From contig CAUJHF010000067.1 of the NCBI GenBank assembly GCA_963204745.1, forward strand, positions 94,340 to 158,339: DNA of 64,000 nucleotides, in the 5' to 3' direction. The position numbers and the translations under genes are program-made. Positions 19,657-28,534 of the stretch are shown one piece after another; within the stretch, counting starts at the first letter, position 1, and every line of letters starts with the position of its first letter. The notes beneath the pieces are model-generated. The model saw only the letters and a program-made list of their open reading frames with translations, was not told where the DNA came from and did no database searches. Source of the stretch: Pseudomonadota bacterium. Lineage in GTDB: Bacteria; Pseudomonadota; Gammaproteobacteria; Steroidobacterales; GCA-2729495.

Positions 19657-20298
19657 TCAGGCTGAGGTGGTCGATGCCCCCGGCTCCGCCGGCAGCTCCA
19701 GCAGCGCTGCCAGTTCGCGGATACTCGCGCGTCGCATCGGATGCCCGTCTACCGGGCTCAGCGGCGCGTGGCCGCGCAGCCGCACCGGGAACACCGTGCT
19801 GCTGAAATCGCAGCCATATGCGCTGAAGCGATAGCCGGGAAACTGTTCCACCTGGTCGTGTCTGAGCCGATGACGCCGGGCGATGATCCGGTAGCCGAGT
19901 CCCAATGATTCCAGGCTTGTACCGACTGCTTCGGTGGTGTCGCTGAACAGATGCAGATCGATGCCGGTATGAATCGTGGCGTTGCCACTCAGTACATCGC
20001 CCACGAGTCGCGGCCGGTAACTGTCGAGATCGCGCATCAGTTCAAAGGCCGCGTGGCGCAATGTCGAGAGCAATTCCGGAAGTGTTTCGCCGTGAAAGAT
20101 CCGGTTACGCTCGGCAAGTGCGGCCTCTATCTCGGTGTTGTTCGGCAGCTGGGCCCGTCGGCCCAGCCCGAGGCGCGCCGCAGCCTTGGCCTTGGCGCTG
20201 CGAAAATCTAGCAGGCCTTCTTCCTGGATTATCCGCGCCGCTTCAACGGCGAGTGCCAGGCGCTGATGATCCGGACGGTCACGGTCAGAAGATCTCAT
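19657..20298 (-). CDS. Conserved hypothetical protein, possibly nucleotidyltransferase-like
   Basis: The 213-residue protein has an N-terminal helical part (DHQRLALAVEAARIIQEEGL, then DFRSAKAKAAARLGL). A second part contains LVGDVLSGNATIHTGIDLHL and the C-terminal APLSPVDGHPMRRASI. It resembles a family of unknown function from Xanthomonadales-type genomes that is sometimes mislabelled as a ligase. The LSG-x(9)-LHLF pattern recalls the G-S/LHLF core of nucleotidyltransferase folds, but catalytic Asp residues are not evident. It overlaps the 3' end of mrcA by 14 bases, so the two are likely co-transcribed. No function is assigned. Confidence 0.7.
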   Translation of the reverse strand: MRSSDRDRPDHQRLALAVEAARIIQEEGLLDFRSAKAKAAARLGLGRRAQLPNNTEIEAALAERNRIFHGETLPELLSTLRHAAFELMRDLDSYRPRLVGDVLSGNATIHTGIDLHLFSDTTEAVGTSLESLGLGYRIIARRHRLRHDQVEQFPGYRFSAYGCDFSSTVFPVRLRGHAPLSPVDGHPMRRASIRELAALLELPAEPGASTTSA

Positions 20299-22825
20299 TC
20301 TCGTTTCCCGCTGGCGCTGCCTGCTGCCCGCGGCCTGTCGCCAGGCTGCTGGCACCGTTCAGTATTTCGAGGTCTGATTCGCGGAACAGTTCAAACATGC
20401 TGCCGGGCTCGCCTGAGGATGCCGGCATTCCGGTTTCGGCTGAAATGCGTGCGGTCACGATGCCTGGCGGTCGCTGAAGCGGGGTCTCCGGCACGCCCTG
20501 CAGCGCGTCAGCCATGAAGTACAACCACATGGGCAGTGCGGTCCGGCCGCCTTCCTCGCGAGGTCCAAGGCTCCGCTCCTGATCAAAGCCCACCCAGGCT
20601 GTGGTGACCAGCTGGCCGTTGAAGCCGCTGAACCACGCATCGCGACGGTCATTGGAGGTTCCGGTCTTGCCCGCAATATCCTCACGGCCAAGCGCCCGCG
20701 CCCGCACGCCCGTGCCCCGCCGGATCACGTCGCGCATCATGTCGTAGACGAGATAGGCATTCTCGGCAGTGATGATCCGCGGTGCCCGGCGCGCTGCCGA
20801 CATGAAGTCCGGCGCTTCGATGGCCGTGGGGCGCCAGGTCCCGGCATGCGCAATCATCTCCTCCGCGTCCAGGTAGGCGGGGATTTCCGGGCCCGTCCTG
20901 GTCGCTGCAGGTATTGCGTCACCACCAGGTTCAAGCTGCGGCTCGTTCGGGCCGAACCAGCGTGGCGCACAGCTTGCGCAGACCACCCGGGTGGGGGCCT
21001 GGAAAATCACCGTCCCGTAGGCATCTTCAATCCGTTCGACAAGATATGGCTCGACGCGATAGCCGCCATTGGCGAATACCGCAAAGCCTGCTGCCATGTC
21101 CCGTGGTGTGGCCTCGCCGCTGCCGAGTGCCATGGTCGGGTTTGGCGGCATGGCGCTGTCCGGCAGGCCGAATGGCCTGATGTAGTTGATTGCCCTGGCA
21201 ACGCCGACACTCAGCAGAACGCGGATGGTGACCAGATTCAGTGATTTGACCAGGCCTTCGCGCAGCCGGGTGGGGCCGTAAAACTGCCCTGAATTGTTCT
21301 GCGGCCGCCATTCGTCGGCGTCGGTGCCGGTGTTTTCAAACACAACCGGCGCATCGTTGACGATCGTCGCCGGGGTGAAACCGCTCTCCAGCGCAGCCGA
21401 GTAAACAAATGGTTTGAATGATGAGCCCGGCTGGCGTTTTGCCTGTACTGCGCGGTTGAACTTGCTGGCAAAAAAATCGTAGCCGCCAGCCAATGCCACG
21501 GTCGCGCCATCCAGCGGGTCGAGCGCTACCAGTGCACCCTGCACCTCCGGCAGTTGCGCGAGCAGCCAGCCACGGCTGATCGTGCGCAGCAGGTAGACGA
21601 TGTCGCCGGCCGAAACAATTTCGCCAACGGACTGCCCGGCCGGGCCGACGTTTGCGTCATCCACGTAGCGTCGCCACTTCAGGCTGGTCCACGGAATGGT
21701 GACCAGGCCCATATCGTGTATGTACAGTGTTGCCGAGTTGTCCGACTGCAGGCGCGTCACCAGGGCCGGGTAAAGATCCGGATGCATCGGGTATGCGTCC
21801 AGCAGCTGTTGTCGCCCCGCATCGTCTGTCGGCAGGGCCCCGTCCACATGAGCAATGGCACCGCGGTACCCGTGCCGCCGGTCATACTCCAGCAAGGCGG
21901 TGCGCAGTGCGCGGTCCGCGCTGTTCTGCAGACGGCTGTCGATGGTCGTGGTTACCCGGTACCCCCGGCTGGTGATGTCCGGGCCAAAACGGGTCACCAT
22001 TTCAGCGCGCACCATCTCCGCAATATAGGGCGCATCGAGTTCGGCTGCGGGTACGTGCAACTGCGACTCGACCGGCGTGGCGAGCGCCTGCCGGTATGCA
22101 ACCTCGTCGATGAACTCAAGCTCCAGCATCCGGCGCAACACATAGGCGCGGCGCTCCCCTGCACGTACCGGGTCAGAAACCGGGTTCAGCAACGAGGGTG
22201 CCTTGGGTATGCCGGCTATGGTTGCAGCTTCTGCGACAGACAACTGATCGAGCGACTTGCCGAAATAGACTTCAGCCGCCGCTGCGATACCGTAAGCGCG
22301 CTGGCCGAAGAATATCTTGTTGAGGTAAAGGGCGAGAATCTCTTCCTTGCTGAAGGCCTGCTCAATCTTCAGTGCCAGCAGGAGTTCTTTGGCCTTGCGT
22401 ACGAAGGTGCGTTCGGGGCTTAAAAAATAGGCCCGCGCGAGCTGCTGGGTGATGGTGCTGCCGCCCTGGGTCCGGCTGCCGGTCAATATGAGGTGGCTGC
22501 CCGCACGCATCAGGCCTTCGTAGTCAAAGCCGGGGTGTTCAAAGAACCGGTCGTCCTCTGCCGCGAGTACGGCCTGCACGACCACCGCCGGAATCTCGCT
22601 GTACCGGACCGGGATGCGGCGGTACTCCCCGAGCTGCGCAATGAGACGTGCGTCACGGGAATAGATACGCAGCGGTACCTGCAGCGGAACGTCCTGCATG
22701 TGCTCGACAGAAGGCAGGCCCGGTGAAAGAAAATACCAGGCTGTACCGGCGGTTACACCACCAGCGATGGCACCGGTAAGTACGATGCCGAGCAGTGCCA
22801 GCAGGACTCTGATCAGAAATTTCAT
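20285..22825 (-). CDS. mrcA: Penicillin-binding protein 1A (bifunctional transglycosylase/transpeptidase)
   Basis: The 846-residue inner-membrane protein polymerises and cross-links peptidoglycan. It has one N-terminal membrane helix (about residues 5-33). The transglycosylase domain holds LAAEDDRFFEHPGFDYEGL, GGSTITQQLAR and KEEILALYLNKIFFGQRAYG. An OB-like insert follows, then a transpeptidase domain with GSSFKP (active Ser), KSLNLVTIR and KTGTSNDRRDAWF. Position divergent from pilM is conserved in gammaproteobacteria. Confidence 0.96.
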   Translation of the reverse strand: MKFLIRVLLALLGIVLTGAIAGGVTAGTAWYFLSPGLPSVEHMQDVPLQVPLRIYSRDARLIAQLGEYRRIPVRYSEIPAVVVQAVLAAEDDRFFEHPGFDYEGLMRAGSHLILTGSRTQGGSTITQQLARAYFLSPERTFVRKAKELLLALKIEQAFSKEEILALYLNKIFFGQRAYGIAAAAEVYFGKSLDQLSVAEAATIAGIPKAPSLLNPVSDPVRAGERRAYVLRRMLELEFIDEVAYRQALATPVESQLHVPAAELDAPYIAEMVRAEMVTRFGPDITSRGYRVTTTIDSRLQNSADRALRTALLEYDRRHGYRGAIAHVDGALPTDDAGRQQLLDAYPMHPDLYPALVTRLQSDNSATLYIHDMGLVTIPWTSLKWRRYVDDANVGPAGQSVGEIVSAGDIVYLLRTISRGWLLAQLPEVQGALVALDPLDGATVALAGGYDFFASKFNRAVQAKRQPGSSFKPFVYSAALESGFTPATIVNDAPVVFENTGTDADEWRPQNNSGQFYGPTRLREGLVKSLNLVTIRVLLSVGVARAINYIRPFGLPDSAMPPNPTMALGSGEATPRDMAAGFAVFANGGYRVEPYLVERIEDAYGTVIFQAPTRVVCASCAPRWFGPNEPQLEPGGDAIPAATRTGPEIPAYLDAEEMIAHAGTWRPTAIEAPDFMSAARRAPRIITAENAYLVYDMMRDVIRRGTGVRARALGREDIAGKTGTSNDRRDAWFSGFNGQLVTTAWVGFDQERSLGPREEGGRTALPMWLYFMADALQGVPETPLQRPPGIVTARISAETGMPASSGEPGSMFELFRESDLEILNGASSLATGRGQQAAPAGNENEIF

Positions 22826-22845
22826 TGAGAAGCGGGAAAGGTACC

Positions 22846-22874
22846 TTGCGCGGCCCGTAACGATTATGCATATT
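22846..22874 (+). promoter_or_regulatory. Putative promoter of the riboswitch-pilM transcript
   Basis: TTGCGC (22846-22851), a 17-base spacer and CATATT (22869-22874) form a moderate sigma-70-like promoter just before the riboswitch fold. It lies in the mrcA-pilM divergent gap. Low certainty. Confidence 0.3.
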
Positions 22875-22877
22875 GGC

Positions 22878-23015
22878 CGCGGTTTTTGGGCAAACCTACT
22901 GAAAGGTGGGGACGCAAAGCTACCGGTCTACGGGACTGCTTGAGGAATTGCGCCATGTGTCGGCGCCGCCGCAAGCGCAGGATCCTACGACAGCGGGGCC
23001 GCCAGGTTACGGATT
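22878..23015 (+). ncRNA. Cyclic di-GMP-I (GEMM-I) riboswitch
   Basis: The conserved core is present in order. GGGCAAACC (22888-22896) leads into a six-pair stem capped by a GAAA tetraloop (5' arm CCTACT, 3' arm GGTGGG). GGGACGCAAAGC (22909-22920) comes next, and AGCGGGG (22992-22998) is on the 3' side before the closing strand. These match the GEMM-I consensus, where the GAAA loop docks into its receptor and flanking G and C residues bind c-di-GMP. The second stem-loop is longer than in the Vibrio Vc2 example, so the 3' boundary is approximate. It lies in the leader of pilM, about 300 bases upstream of the start codon, on the same strand. Confidence 0.85.
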
Positions 23016-23317
23016 TTCTGCTGTATCCGTCATCTGTACCCTCTGCGTACGATGCTTCTGTGCTTGCCGCTTTCGGGTTCGATCCAGATCGTGACCCGCG
23101 GCCAGGGCGCTCTGTTCCCCATGCATTGTCTTCCGCTGACCGGGCTTCTGGATCAGAAGCGCTGAAGTCTGCCTTCACGGGTTGATGGCAGTGGTGTTTC
23201 TGAACAGGTGACGGTCGTCACATCGCGTTTCTATCGCCCGTGATATATGGTTAAATGCAATTCGTGACGTGCCGAAGACTTTGTTCGCGCAACTTCCGGG
23301 TTTAGAAGGGAAAAGCT
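23016..23317 (+). other. Long leader between the riboswitch and pilM
   Basis: About 300 bases with no supported gene. A perfect hairpin GCTTCTG-GAT-CAGAAGC (23144-23160) is present but has no following T-tract, so it is not a standard intrinsic terminator. The pilM ribosome binding site AGAAGGG is at the end. The expression platform of the riboswitch could be here or at the riboswitch 3' edge, but no clear mutually exclusive terminator/antiterminator pair was identified. Confidence 0.4.
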
Positions 23318-24379
23318 GTGCTTTTCGGTCCACGTTCCAGGCCTCTGATTGGCCTTGACATAACAACCTCATCGATCAAGCTCGTTGAGTTGTCTCAGAG
23401 CGGCAAGACTTTCCGTGCGGAGAGCTATGCTGCGGAGCCAACGCCACCCAACTCGATCAACGAGAAAACGATCGTCGATGCACCGGCCGTAGGCGAAGCC
23501 ATTCGCCGTGCCGTCAAGCGTGCGGGCACCAGCTCGAAAGACGCAGCCATCGCGATCGGCGGCGATGCCGCCATTACCAAGATCATCCAGATGCCACGGC
23601 GCTTCACCGCGCGCGAGCTCGAAGGCCAGGTTGAGATCCAGGCCGATCAGTACATTCCCTTTCCGATGGAAGAGGTCAGTTTTGATTTCGAGGTGATGGG
23701 GCCATCTGCGACTGATCCCGAAATGCTCGACATCCTGCTGGTTGCAACCCGTACCGAGAACGTCGATCAGCGGAAGGCTGCGGTCGAAGCAGCGGGTCTC
23801 GTAGCCCGCGTCGTCGATGTCGAGCCATTCGCACTTGAGAATGCCTGTCACCTGCTCATGCACCAGATGCCCGACGGAGGCATGCAGCATCAGATAGCTA
23901 TCGTCGATTTCGGTGCCAGCAATACCACTTTCAGCGTTTTGCGGGACATGCGGGTCATATACACGCGCGACTTCTCCTTCGGCGGGCAGCAGCTCACCGA
24001 GGAAATCATGCGCACCTACGGCCTCAGCCTCGAAGACGCAGGGCGCGCCAAGAAAGAAGGCGGACTGCCGGGCAACTACCAGCCGGAAGTGCTCGACCCG
24101 TTCATGGATGACATGACCCAGCAGGTCAGTCGTTCGCTGCAGTTCTTCCTCGCATCCGGCGGTGGCCGCGAGCAGCCTGACCAGATTCTGGTCTGCGGTG
24201 GTTGCGCAAACATTCCGGGTGTTGCAGACGTCATTTCAAGCAAGGTCGGCATACCTACCGAGATCGGTGATCCACTCGGCCAGATGAAGATCTCCAGCCG
24301 GGCCAAATCACAGGGTATCCGCAAGGACTCCACTGCACTGCTGACCGCATGTGGGCTCGCGCTTCGGAGTTTCGACTGA
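23318..24379 (+). CDS. pilM: Type IV pilus assembly protein PilM
   Basis: The 353-residue cytoplasmic actin-like protein binds the N-terminal tail of PilN and links the pilus motor to the inner-membrane alignment complex. Actin-fold motifs are GLDITTSSIKLVELS (about residues 9-23) and IVDFGASNTTFSVL (about 194-207), with VCGGCANIPGVADVI near the end. The gene starts at GTG 23318 with an AGAAGGGAAAA ribosome binding site. It is first in pilMNOPQ and follows the c-di-GMP riboswitch. Confidence 0.96.
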   Translation: MLFGPRSRPLIGLDITTSSIKLVELSQSGKTFRAESYAAEPTPPNSINEKTIVDAPAVGEAIRRAVKRAGTSSKDAAIAIGGDAAITKIIQMPRRFTARELEGQVEIQADQYIPFPMEEVSFDFEVMGPSATDPEMLDILLVATRTENVDQRKAAVEAAGLVARVVDVEPFALENACHLLMHQMPDGGMQHQIAIVDFGASNTTFSVLRDMRVIYTRDFSFGGQQLTEEIMRTYGLSLEDAGRAKKEGGLPGNYQPEVLDPFMDDMTQQVSRSLQFFLASGGGREQPDQILVCGGCANIPGVADVISSKVGIPTEIGDPLGQMKISSRAKSQGIRKDSTALLTACGLALRSFD

Positions 24380-24380
24380 T

Positions 24381-24989
24381 ATGCCACGCATAAATCTACT
24401 GCCCTGGCGCGATGAACTGCGCACCAAGCGGCGCAACCAGTTCTTTATCGGGTTGGGTGCGGCTGTCGCCGCCGCCGGCCTGGTGATTCTCGTTTCAAAC
24501 CTCGTCATGGACGGGGTTGTCAGCAGCCAGCTGGCCCGCAACAAGCTGCTTGAAGACGAGATCAAATTGCTTGATGAGCGCATAGCCGAGATCCTCGATC
24601 TTGAAGCCAAGAAAGAACGGCTGCTGGCGCGCATGGAAATCATCGAGCAGCTCCAGCGCAGCCGGCCGGAAATCGTGCATGTCTTTGAGGAACTGGTGAG
24701 GACGCTGCCGGACGGTGTGCGTCTGACTTCGGTGACGCAGTCCGGCAAGCGCGTGGAAATCCGCGGTGACGCTGAATCGAATACCCGTGTATCCGCCTTC
24801 ATGCGCAATCTCGACAAGTCACCATGGTTCACGCAGCCCGACCTTGAGGTCGTTGAGGTGCGCGAAGCAGGAGCGAAAGGCAAGAAGGGCGTGCCGCAGG
24901 AGACCGGCGAGTTTGCCGGCCGCTCATCACAGTTTGTGGTAACTGCCAGCCAGGTATCCCGGGCGGATGATGAGGAGGCTGCAAAATGA
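24381..24989 (+). CDS. pilN: Type IV pilus assembly protein PilN
   Basis: The 202-residue inner-membrane protein starts with the PilM-binding motif INLLPWRDELR, followed by a membrane helix (about residues 22-43). A coiled coil comes next (about 48-95, rich in E, K and L), then a periplasmic ferredoxin-like domain containing VFEELVRTLPDGVRLTSV. It forms the PilN-PilO heterodimer. The ATG at 24381 follows the pilM stop after one base. Confidence 0.95.
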   Translation: MPRINLLPWRDELRTKRRNQFFIGLGAAVAAAGLVILVSNLVMDGVVSSQLARNKLLEDEIKLLDERIAEILDLEAKKERLLARMEIIEQLQRSRPEIVHVFEELVRTLPDGVRLTSVTQSGKRVEIRGDAESNTRVSAFMRNLDKSPWFTQPDLEVVEVREAGAKGKKGVPQETGEFAGRSSQFVVTASQVSRADDEEAAK

Positions 24990-25705
24990 ACTTCCTCGAC
25001 GATCTCCGTAACCTGGACATCAACGATATCGGCCGCTGGCCGTTCCCGATCCAGGCATTCTTCATCACGCTGCTGTTCGTCGTTGCCGGTGCCGGTGGTT
25101 TCTGGACCTTTGTCTGGCAAAACCAGATGCCGAAACTCGAGAAAGCGCAGGCAGTAGAACGCGAATTGCGCAGCACCTTCGAGAGCAAGCAACGCAAGGC
25201 GGCGAATTTCACGGCGTACAAGGCGCAGCTTGCCGAAATCGAGCGTTCCTTCGGCACGATGCTCCGGCAGTTGCCCGGTAAAACCGAAATACCCAATCTG
25301 CTGGTGGACATTTCCCAGACCGGCCGCGGCGCCGGCCTGCAGGAAGAGCTGTTCCAGCCGGCCGAAGAAGTACGCAAGGATTTCTACGCGGAAAAGCCCA
25401 TCAAGATCCGCCTGTCCGGCTCATATCATGAGTTTGGCCGATTCGTGAGCGACATTGCGGCGCTGCCCCGTATCGTGACGCTGCACGATATCGAGATCGC
25501 GCCCAAGGGGAAGAATCCCGGCTTTGATGAGCTGGTCCTTAACGTCACCGCAAAAACCTATCGCTACCTGGATGAGGATGAGTTGCAGGCCGCGGCAGAT
25601 GCCGAAGCTGCAACCAACGGGCCGCGCGGCAAGAAATCCAGAACGACCCGCGAGAACAGCAAGGGCGTGAAGCCGGCCAAAGCGAAGTCGGGGAAGAAGG
25701 GCTAG
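24986..25705 (+). CDS. pilO: Type IV pilus assembly protein PilO
   Basis: The 239-residue protein has a membrane helix (about residues 27-45), a coiled coil (about 50-85) and a periplasmic domain (GSYHEFGRFVSDIAALPRIV typical of PilO). It pairs with PilN and contacts PilP. ATG overlaps the pilN stop (ATGA). The C-terminal tail beyond residue 205 is Lys/Arg-rich and low-complexity, longer than in many homologues. Confidence 0.95.
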   Translation: MNFLDDLRNLDINDIGRWPFPIQAFFITLLFVVAGAGGFWTFVWQNQMPKLEKAQAVERELRSTFESKQRKAANFTAYKAQLAEIERSFGTMLRQLPGKTEIPNLLVDISQTGRGAGLQEELFQPAEEVRKDFYAEKPIKIRLSGSYHEFGRFVSDIAALPRIVTLHDIEIAPKGKNPGFDELVLNVTAKTYRYLDEDELQAAADAEAATNGPRGKKSRTTRENSKGVKPAKAKSGKKG

Positions 25706-26245
25706 ATGATCGGGGTTCTATCCATGCTGTACAGATTCCGTCTCCGGCAGGCCGGTGCCGGGATCCTGCTTGCATCCGCGCTGCTGACCGGCTGTGGTGG
25801 CAGCAAGTCGGATCTCGAAAAGTACATCGACACCGTCAAGGCGCGGCCGGGTGGCCGCATCGAAGCCTTGCCGCAGGTCAAGCCGTACGAGACCTTCAGC
25901 TACGCGGCCGAGTCGCTGCGTTCGCCTTTCGTCCCGGGCCAGTCGCAGGGTCGCGCAGGCATAACGGGTCCGCGTCCGGATTCGGCCCGCCCCAAGGAGT
26001 ATCTGGAGCAGTTCCCGCTCGATACGCTTTCGATGGCAGGCACGCTGAGTCAGGGCAAGGCGACCTATGGGTTGGTGCAGACCGGCGACGGTTTGCTGCA
26101 CAAGGTTCTGCCCGGTAACTATATCGGCCAGTACGACGGCCGCGTCGTTGCCGTAACGCAGGCAGACATCCAGGTTGAGGAATTGGTGCCGGATGGCATG
26201 GGTGGCTTCTACAAACGGTCGGCCTCTATCGCGCTTGGAAATTGA
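25706..26245 (+). CDS. pilP: Type IV pilus assembly lipoprotein PilP
   Basis: The 179-residue lipoprotein has a lipobox LLTGC (Cys30, or Cys24 if the ATG at 25724 is used). A flexible linker follows, then the beta-sandwich PilP domain (LDTLSMAGTLSQGKATYGLV, VLPGNYIGQYDGRVV). PilP joins the PilNO dimer in the inner membrane to the N0 domain of PilQ. The start directly abuts the pilO stop. Confidence 0.94.
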   Translation: MIGVLSMLYRFRLRQAGAGILLASALLTGCGGSKSDLEKYIDTVKARPGGRIEALPQVKPYETFSYAAESLRSPFVPGQSQGRAGITGPRPDSARPKEYLEQFPLDTLSMAGTLSQGKATYGLVQTGDGLLHKVLPGNYIGQYDGRVVAVTQADIQVEELVPDGMGGFYKRSASIALGN

Positions 26246-26320
26246 GGCGGGGTTTCCGTGGCCGCGCAGCGGGACACGGAATTTGAGTTGCCGACGCAAG
26301 AATATGGTTGGGAGTACGGG

Positions 26321-28534
26321 ATGATGAGCACGACCAGGGGCAGTGAGATGGCAGGACCAACCGGCAGGCGGCATACCGTCAGCCGCGTCCTTGCGGCATG
26401 GATCAGCGCGCTGGCAATCGCGTTGACCGGGGTGTCTGTCGCGCTGGCCCAGGCTGCGCCGGCGGCAAACCAGCTGAAGGATATCGAAGTCCAGTCGCTG
26501 TCAGGCAATCGCCTCGAACTGCGCCTGCTGACATCCGGCGCCGCATCCGAGCCACTGGCTTTCACCATCGACAACCCTGCCCGCATCTCTCTCGACCTGC
26601 AGAACACGACGCTTGGACTCGACAAGCGTCGCAAGGACGTCAACATCGGTCCGCTGTCCACGATTCTTGCAGCTGAGGCTGGCGGCAAGACCCGCGTCGT
26701 TCTGAATCTCGACAAAATGGTGCCTTACCAGACCCGCGTCGATGGCAACGCCATCGTGGTGACGCTCGGTGCGCCGGAAGCTGCCGCCGCGGGGACTTCG
26801 TTCCCTGAGACCAGCTCCGCACCCGCCGCAGCGGCTTCCGTCGCCAAAGCCGGCCGCAGCGTCAGCGGCGTGGATTTCCGTCGCGGTGACAATGGTGCCG
26901 GGCGCGTCGTGATCACCCTGTCCGATCCCTCAACGCCGGTCGATGTCCGCAAGGAAGGCGATCGGGTGGTGCTTTCGTTCAACGGTGCAACGCTTCCGGC
27001 CAACTTGCAGAAGCGTCTCGATGTCACCGATTTCGCAACGCCCGTGAACTCGATTGAATCGGCGGGCACGTCCACCGGTACGCGCGTCAGCATCGCCGCC
27101 AAACTGCCGTTCCAGGAACTCGCCTACCAGTCCGACAACGTATTCACCGTCGAGATCGCGCCGGTAGTTGCCGCAGAAAAGAACACGAAGCCTACCCTGT
27201 TCAGCCCGGATCGCGAGTACACGGGCGAGCGGCTCACGCTTTCTTTCCAGGATATCGAGACCCGGGCCGTCCTGCAGCTGCTGGCTGATGTCAGCGGGCG
27301 GAACATCATCGTCTCCGACAGCGTGGCCGGCAATGTCACCCTGCGCCTGCAAAACGTACCCTGGGATCAGGCGCTCGACATCGTCCTGGCCACCAAGGGA
27401 CTGGACATGCGTGAGAACGGTGGCGTGATCATCGTTGCGCCGGCTGACGAGATCGCCTCGCGCGAAAAGGCCGACCTCGAAGCCCGCAAGGACATACGTG
27501 AACTTGAACCGCTGTTGTCCGAGTTCCTGCAGGTCAACTATGCCAAGGCCGCCGATCTCGCCGATCTGATGAAGAGCAAGGGAGGCAAGGGCAATGCGCT
27601 GCTTTCCGAGCGTGGCAGCGTGGCAATAGACGAGCGTACCAACACGCTGCTGGTACAGGACGTCAGCGAGAACATCAGGGAGATCCGCCGGCTAGTCAGC
27701 ACGCTGGATATTCCGGTGCGCCAGGTGCTGATCGAGTCGCGTATCGTGATCGTGAACGATGATTTCAGTCGCGACCTCGGCATGCGGTGGGGCGTGACCG
27801 GCGTTCACGATACCAGCGACGGACTCGTCGCGGTGTCCGGTTCTGCCACCGGCACGAGCACCATCGTCAACTCCGCACTGACCAACCAGCAGTCCACGGG
27901 CTCCGAATATCCGGTACAGCTGCCTGCGCTGGCAGATCGCTACAACGTGAACCTGCCAGTGGCGAATCCCGCCGGCCGTCTCGGCCTTGCTTTGCTCGGC
28001 GAAGACTATCTGGTTGATCTGGAACTCTCCGCATTGCAGGCGGAAGGCCGAGGTGAGGTGATTTCTTCGCCGCGTGTCATTACCGCCAACCAGAAGGAGG
28101 CCTCGATCCGTCAGGGTGTCGAGATTCCCTACCAGGAGTCATCTTCCAGCGGCGCTACCACGACCCAGTTCAAGGAGGCTGTCCTCAGCCTTACGGTAAC
28201 GCCGCAGATCACGCCTGATGACCGGATCATTCTCGACCTCAAGGTGACCAAGGACAGCGTTGGCGCAGTCATTTCCAATGAACGCGGCGGCTCGGTACCG
28301 AGCATCGATACGCGTGCCGTCGATACACAGGTGCTGGTCAACAGCGGCCAGACCGTGGTGCTCGGCGGCGTCTACGAGACGGAAGAAGGCGAGCAGGTCA
28401 GCAAGGTGCCGTTCCTCGGTGACATCCCCGGTGTCGGCGTGCTGTTCCGCTCGACCCGCAAGGTGTCAAACAAATCCGAACTGCTGATCTTTGTGACGCC
28501 AAAGATTCTCAAGGAAGGCTCGAACATTTATTGA
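26321..28534 (+). CDS. pilQ: Type IV pilus secretin PilQ
   Basis: The protein has about 737 residues and forms the outer-membrane pore for the pilus. It has a signal peptide, two AMIN domains (about residues 50-130 and 160-260) for peptidoglycan binding, and an STN/N0 domain (LSFQDIETRAVLQLLADVSG). One N1-type domain follows, then the C-terminal secretin core (GRGEVISSPRVITANQKEAS, VVLGGVYETEEGEQVSKVPF, KSELLIFVTPKIL). ATG 26321 was preferred because GGGAG precedes it. An in-frame GTG at 26258 would add 21 residues before the signal peptide. Confidence 0.95.
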   Translation: MMSTTRGSEMAGPTGRRHTVSRVLAAWISALAIALTGVSVALAQAAPAANQLKDIEVQSLSGNRLELRLLTSGAASEPLAFTIDNPARISLDLQNTTLGLDKRRKDVNIGPLSTILAAEAGGKTRVVLNLDKMVPYQTRVDGNAIVVTLGAPEAAAAGTSFPETSSAPAAAASVAKAGRSVSGVDFRRGDNGAGRVVITLSDPSTPVDVRKEGDRVVLSFNGATLPANLQKRLDVTDFATPVNSIESAGTSTGTRVSIAAKLPFQELAYQSDNVFTVEIAPVVAAEKNTKPTLFSPDREYTGERLTLSFQDIETRAVLQLLADVSGRNIIVSDSVAGNVTLRLQNVPWDQALDIVLATKGLDMRENGGVIIVAPADEIASREKADLEARKDIRELEPLLSEFLQVNYAKAADLADLMKSKGGKGNALLSERGSVAIDERTNTLLVQDVSENIREIRRLVSTLDIPVRQVLIESRIVIVNDDFSRDLGMRWGVTGVHDTSDGLVAVSGSATGTSTIVNSALTNQQSTGSEYPVQLPALADRYNVNLPVANPAGRLGLALLGEDYLVDLELSALQAEGRGEVISSPRVITANQKEASIRQGVEIPYQESSSSGATTTQFKEAVLSLTVTPQITPDDRIILDLKVTKDSVGAVISNERGGSVPSIDTRAVDTQVLVNSGQTVVLGGVYETEEGEQVSKVPFLGDIPGVGVLFRSTRKVSNKSELLIFVTPKILKEGSNIY

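Follow-up and report, generated by a model that had tools for sequence, protein, structure and literature searches.

A conserved c-di-GMP-I riboswitch upstream of pilMNOPQ, with a predicted CRP-type promoter between it and pilM

The window analysed here is a whole stretch of 64,000 nt, and all coordinates count from its position 1. It belongs to a genome of 2.69 Mb in 69 contigs that is 88% complete. The pilus assembly operon pilMNOPQ lies on the plus strand, and a penicillin-binding protein gene points away from it. The genes and the features between them are as follows.

20285..22825, minus strand: divergent gene for a class A penicillin-binding protein of the ponA/mrcA type (PF00912, PF00905, PF17092)
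22846..22874, plus strand: predicted promoter P1, from motif conservation (-35 TTGCGC at 22846-22851, 17 nt, -10 CATATT at 22869-22874; start expected near 22881)
22863..22868, minus strand: CATAAT, a possible -10 element for divergent ponA; it overlaps P1
22879..23006, plus strand: c-di-GMP-I riboswitch aptamer (RF01051, 58.9 bits; model R1, 67.2 bits)
22936..22982, plus strand: P3 hairpin extension of 47 nt, an insert in the cmscan alignment
23031..23080, plus strand: possible Rho loading site, 25-75 nt beyond the aptamer, in which C outnumbers G in most leaders (weakly so in the window, +2)
23208..23221, plus strand: CRP-like box GTGA-N6-TCAC of the predicted promoter P2, conserved with at most one mismatch in most leaders
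23242..23256, plus strand: conserved block GATATATGGTTAAAT of predicted P2, from the alignment (-10 TATATG at 23244-23249; start expected near 23256)
23305..23310, plus strand: likely pilM ribosome-binding site GAAGGG, from the sequence and conserved in the alignment
23318..24379, plus strand: pilM (PF11104, 412.6 bits)
24351..24989, plus strand: pilN (PF05137)
24986..25705, plus strand: pilO (PF04350)
25706..26245, plus strand: pilP (PF04351)
26258..28534, plus strand: pilQ, the secretin gene (PF00263, PF11741, PF03958, PF07660)

The preliminary description had recognised a GEMM-I core in the pilM orientation and proposed a covariance-model search as a check. In a cmscan of the whole window RF01051 matched the plus strand at 22879-23006 significantly (58.9 bits, E 5.9e-9, cut-off 35), and this was the only match in the 64 kb to reach a gathering score. 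The quoted core letters are present: GGGCAAACC, a GAAA loop, GGGACGCAAAGC and AGCGGGG. The recognition of the element was thus borne out. The span given for it, 22878..23317, was correct, but the relevant features start earlier, at about 22846 with the -35 element of predicted P1.

The ligand-contact letters are G20, A47 and C92 in Vc2 numbering, which we take to be positions 11, 38 and 83 of the RF01051 model. In the alignment the window carries G, A and C at these places. Among the pilM-leader aptamers, G and A are found in 37/37 and C in all 36 leaders that could be scored. An A in place of G at position 20 marks the cGAMP type (GEMM-Ib), while G marks the c-di-GMP type. We therefore rejected cGAMP specificity, as position 20 is G in the window and in 37/37 leaders. 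The contact letters fit c-di-GMP as the probable ligand.

The aptamer departs from the class elsewhere. The model consensus has a conserved A8A9, for which the window has UU. A8A9 is kept in only three of the 37 pilM-leader aptamers and replaced by UU in 23 of them. It is present in 23/23 aptamers away from pilM, which were chosen by score, and score favours the consensus. By "away from pilM" we mean not at the PilM match of the genome; no such match was found in G016, G030 or G039. The absence of A8A9 is a deviation inside the c-di-GMP-I class and outside the contact letters. Three leaders, the window's and those of its two closest relatives, have a C at model position 81 and with it an A-C mismatch; their aptamers also lack A8A9. 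Of the 21 named Rfam-positive loci, 19 have aptamers of 122-131 nt, L056 one of 108 nt and L115 one of 85 nt. Elsewhere the length is 104 nt in L164, 155 nt in L189 and 84-100 nt in the ten leaders inspected from other families.

The genome holds four further c-di-GMP-I matches besides that in the pilM leader, 12 GGDEF matches and a Rho gene. The four matches (L001, L002, L003 and L005) are followed by genes that look, respectively, thioredoxin-like, like a secreted repeat-type protein, like a sugar-transferase-like membrane protein and like a protein with a PEP-CTERM-like tail; these open reading frames were judged by eye and not by family search. No promoter motif common to the five riboswitches of the genome was seen by eye. 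Relatives can carry many more matches per genome, with 21 in G045, 17 in G091 and 15 in G048.

A comparison of this leader across relatives had also been proposed, and the riboswitch was found to be kept at pilM in two collections. The PilM scan covered the best 80 named loci of 190, titled gammaproteobacterial, Chromatiales, Nevskiales, Woeseiaceae or unplaced and nearly all from MAGs. An Rfam riboswitch stood ahead of pilM in 21 of these 80 (20 RF01051 and one RF03167). The latter, L043 at 2627-2748, was assigned to c-di-GMP-I-GGC, and in it AAA precedes the core, unlike in most of its kin. Model R1, for which we combined 23 aptamers lying away from pilM with a single pilM leader, found 22/80, the additional one being the decayed L084 (45.2 bits). 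Among 99 whole genomes, own included, 83 had a PilM match. There were 84 matches in all, and leaving out three fragments (two in G041, one in G077) gave 81 leaders. In 39 of these a match of at least 45 bits lay in the same place, and three more had weak matches of 20-34 bits. By family handle the carriers were 29/36 in f1, 5/5 in f10, 2/5 in f6, 1/4 in f4, 1/5 in f11 and 1/4 in f12; no carrier was among the 22 leaders of f2, f5, f7, f8, f9, f15 and f16. The decayed aptamers at pilM are L084 (2682-2806, altered core GGACAAAAAG), L171 (34.1 bits), L186 (21.5) and L158 (20.5), and L145 also scored 45.2 bits. In L081, pilM translated from the start used for the match meets a stop at residue 49, owing either to an assembly error or to a broken gene.

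For leader-wide counts we used a set of 39 leaders, namely 23 from the R1 scan, among them the window, and 16 of the 39 genome matches. The other 23 genome matches were dropped because equal or matching bit scores pointed to genomes already represented. L115, a near copy of L150, and the decayed L084 are included wherever 39 leaders are counted and left out where the total is 37. On a PilM tree with 76 rows, which omits five of the 80 loci, the trait needs 3 changes compared with 20.1 when labels are shuffled. One supported clade (99/94) of 24 rows contains 22 carriers out of 23, with L084 counted as a carrier; its two rows without the riboswitch, L054 and L061, have probably lost it.

Mean pairwise identity among 27 family leaders is 90% in the aptamer core, 73% in the preceding 36 nt and 40% in the P3 insert; most of them fold this extension into a long hairpin, with no conserved sequence. 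The spacer after the aptamer is 24% identical, compared with 18% when shuffled, and the block before pilM 58%. The hardly conserved spacer thus contains two conserved islands. The leaders are related, so that the counts are not independent. The recurrence in 21/80 and 39/81 loci and the contrast between core and spacer mean that the riboswitch is not at pilM by chance.

Could it nevertheless be a relic in which switching has been lost? The weak or decayed copies (L084, L145, L171, L186 and L158) and the two probable losses are what such a relic would leave behind, and the copy in the window, with its A-C mismatch, is the lowest-scoring intact one in the R1 scan. A core this well kept beside so variable a spacer, and its retention by 22 of the 24 clade members (L084 counted), argue against this reading, and we consider it improbable.

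Directly 5' of the aptamer, all 39 riboswitch leaders have TTGNNN-N16/17-CATNNT, with a spacing of 17 nt (16 in one). P1 agrees with the consensus at just 7 of its 12 letters, and no sigma-70-consensus promoter, P1 included, was picked up when 22700-23500 was scanned for the consensus. The motif ATTATGCAT also occurs in 14 riboswitch-less loci, and on the minus strand its CATAAT may be the -10 element of ponA. The P1 elements are present in just two of the 14 motif-bearing riboswitch-less leaders, and these two are L054 and L061. In the leaders inspected from families f6, f11 and f12 the minus-strand side is gone and the forward P1 elements are retained, which favours a forward promoter that belongs to the riboswitch. 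We predict that P1 is this promoter and that its RNA starts at the edge of the aptamer. The expected P1 transcript would begin with GGUUUUUGGGC (22881-22890 in the window), with a U run that is interrupted in some leaders. Starts in a U run recall the UTP-sensitive slippage starts, e.g. those of codBA and upp.

The GTG start of pilM (23318) lies 311 nt from the 3' end of the aptamer. An unusual distance of about 300 nt had been pointed out before; it stands, but it had not been foreseen that the gap holds a second conserved block, the predicted P2. When one mismatch is tolerated, its CRP-like box occurs in 30/36 riboswitch leaders and 67/92 others (0.9% and 1.8% in shuffles), in a count that omits four leaders with less than 140 nt upstream; the remaining six of the 36 have degenerate boxes with 2-4 mismatches. 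We placed the P2 start by assumption 7 nt 3' of the TATATR hexamer. The window box is centred at 23214.5, with the start expected at 23256. In riboswitch-less leaders the box centre is at -41.5 in 48/48 measurable cases (55 examined, five without a box, two without a -10), although these sets may repeat genomes, as they come from two collections. Of the 14 riboswitch leaders that could be measured (23 examined, eight without a box, one without a -10), 11 have the box at -40.5 to -42.5, and the other three have it at -53.5, -53.5 and -60.5. Three leaders shorter than 150 nt were omitted from the spacing count. Class II CRP promoters have a CRP palindrome centred near -41.5. A CRP/Vfr-type protein is encoded: full-length alignments of the L198 open reading frame score 255.5 bits with E. 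coli CRP and 253.7 bits with Vfr. In L041 the region of the box, about -130 to -95 before pilM, contains a short tandem repeat with three copies of GCGTCACA.

From the position and conservation of these elements, P2 is predicted to be a CRP-dependent class II promoter between the riboswitch and pilM. Because the P2 block is present in most riboswitch-less leaders too, P2 is probably the older, basic pilM promoter, upstream of which the riboswitch sits. This older promoter in between would explain the distance of about 300 nt. It also means that the riboswitch could act on pilMNOPQ solely via transcripts from upstream starts. The expectation that pilMNOPQ is under riboswitch control is partly supported: the riboswitch is conserved at pilM, but it is probably not the sole control. 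Fifty aligned riboswitch-less leaders, from pilM loci among L052-L114, have blocks of their own upstream of P2, at about -300 to -120 (TGTGGC, GATGATAG, CTGCAAT and ACCAGTTCACGGAA). They yielded no convincing consensus fold, only conserved sequence blocks, which are perhaps another regulatory element in the place of the riboswitch.

How would the aptamer act on transcripts from P1? A consensus scan of 22700-23500 found no intrinsic terminator on the plus strand and one on the minus strand, and terminator-like sites occur in 3/39 leaders where 2.15 are expected. An intrinsic terminator switch was therefore rejected, in agreement with the earlier remark that no classic one is obvious. Structure after the aptamer is not consistent, with mean z values of -0.49 to +0.03 over five segments. 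Pairing of the spacer with the 3' end of the aptamer has a mean z of -0.60 (11/37 below -1) and with its 5' part one of +0.16. The unconstrained fold of the 471-nt leader is slightly more stable than that of shuffled sequences, with a z of -2.25 (2/100 shuffles); its lowest-energy form breaks the aptamer, and we draw nothing from it. The unseen small gene that had been suggested was not borne out either: among six near leaders no start with a ribosome-binding site is common to more than two, and the spacer is hardly conserved.

With no terminator found, the long P1 transcript might be controlled in its translation or stability, with no early termination, as in Vc2/tfoY, for which the available passages of PMC7371385 offer a precedent. 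The pilM ribosome-binding site is, however, about 300 nt away, across a spacer scarcely more identical than shuffled sequence, with no consistent structure or aptamer pairing, and transcripts from P2 would be without the switch. We regard this reading as unlikely.

What the leaders have in common after the aptamer is a base composition. At 25-75 nt after the aptamer, C minus G is positive in 37/39 leaders (mean +6.0), compared with -0.3 (sd 4.4) in 50-nt bins of the window and with -3.0 at 100-200 nt in the same leaders (18/78 positive). YC dimers number 16.7 versus 11.1 per 80 nt in the 39 leaders. In 32/37 leaders the C-over-G value of this stretch is higher than the average over that leader's windows; per 100 nt, the value is +3.3 in riboswitch leaders (n=27) versus -3.0 in riboswitch-less ones (n=48). 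The window itself is a weak case, with 57 C and 56 G in its spacer and a C-over-G value of just +2. Aptamers away from pilM are also followed by more C than G (mean +2.9, 25/34), so the excess is not special to the pilM leader. The excess of C over G and of YC dimers after the aptamer fits Rho loading. Rho access is the best remaining of the mechanisms proposed earlier, and Rho gating is the single mechanism that we favour as most likely, though it is unproven.

Taken together, the explanation we prefer is that c-di-GMP gates only the read-through from P1, probably in a Rho-dependent manner, and that P2 supplies pilM separately under cAMP-CRP. We hold it tentatively, at close to an even chance. 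Here we infer that both blocks are promoters and that CRP binds at the second. P1 would start RNA at the aptamer edge, upstream of pilMNOPQ, and binding of c-di-GMP to the aptamer would set whether these transcripts run on toward pilM. Those that do not would end in the spacer by Rho-dependent and not intrinsic termination, while P2 would feed pilM independently of the riboswitch. As to direction, we lean modestly to ON with ligand, by analogy with the Geobacter pilM riboswitch.

The same two predicted promoters could be read with the opposite sign. Polymerases reading through from P1 might disturb P2, so that c-di-GMP sets how free P2 is. P1 and P2 do stand in line on one strand, with P2 the more widely conserved block and no other conserved content in the spacer between them. 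Such interference relies on the same predicted promoters, however, and no sequence feature prefers it to simple read-through; we give it a low probability. It is less probable still that P1 RNA stops before P2 and acts elsewhere, as a separate small RNA or a ligand-dependent regulator, and not on pilM. A complete promoter-aptamer unit that ends well ahead of the basic pilM promoter would suit this, but its occurrence at pilM in several families suggests a cis role, and the conserved sequence that a trans-acting RNA would be expected to have beyond the aptamer is not seen.

P1 read-through gated by c-di-GMP, next to a separate P2, may also characterise a wider group. The pilM leaders of this gammaproteobacterial order might be a distinct c-di-GMP-I sub-type, with control by Rho access before an older cAMP-CRP promoter. 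Its joint marks would be a replaced A8A9, a start at the aptamer edge, no switch helix of its own and, in one family, the long P3 extension. We put this forward as a possibility on the doubtful side.

The timing of bacterial attachment and pilus making is decided with the help of both c-di-GMP and cAMP. If the preferred explanation is true, both messengers feed the pilus operon, as a two-messenger gate in one intergenic region. Relatives with and without the riboswitch before the same kind of promoter would be natural pairs for assessing its contribution. A long distance between riboswitch and gene can signal an intervening promoter, which riboswitch target lists would miss.

This is a real, conserved riboswitch, and its class (c-di-GMP-I) and target (pilM) are already known kinds; the arrangement is unusual. 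What appears new, judged by sequence, is the predicted P1, the predicted CRP-type P2 bypass, the missing A8A9 and a leader in which no switch helix is visible. The bypass arrangement, the lost A8A9 and the absent helix make it a variant worth testing. No c-di-GMP-I riboswitch in a gammaproteobacterial pilM leader was among the literature matches listed, subscription papers being mostly outside their scope.

The following comparisons draw on the available passages of the cited papers. In Geobacter, a GEMM-Ib riboswitch at pilM is a cGAMP ON-switch acting on transcription (PMC9262584), and pilMNOP genes fall 2-3 fold on deletion of the cGAMP synthase (PMC6456294). The same RNA fold class thus lies upstream of pilM and a pilus assembly operon in both cases. 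The Geobacter ligand is cGAMP and a terminator fold there excludes the aptamer, whereas the leader studied here has G20 and no terminator was found. The Geobacter passages make no mention of a downstream CRP-type promoter, unlike the predicted P2. The c-di-GMP-I riboswitch Bc1 of Bacillus thuringiensis (PMC11218506) shares the long leader, but its long expression platform has two intrinsic terminators, and none was found here. Riboswitches that act through Rho are mentioned in PMC7446863 (see also PMC12810186 and PMC5234074). Leader control without an intrinsic terminator would be common to them and to the present case, in which dependence on Rho is inferred. Apparently Rho-independent mechanisms are described in C. 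difficile. A likeness in promoter layout is offered by Vc2/tfoY of Vibrio cholerae, with promoters upstream of, within and downstream of the riboswitch and some transcripts that are without the switch (PMC7371385). There the bypass is VpsR-dependent and the control is of translation and of a different gene, while the predicted bypass here has a CRP-like box. The tfoY riboswitch gives the two-promoter arrangement predicted here a precedent.
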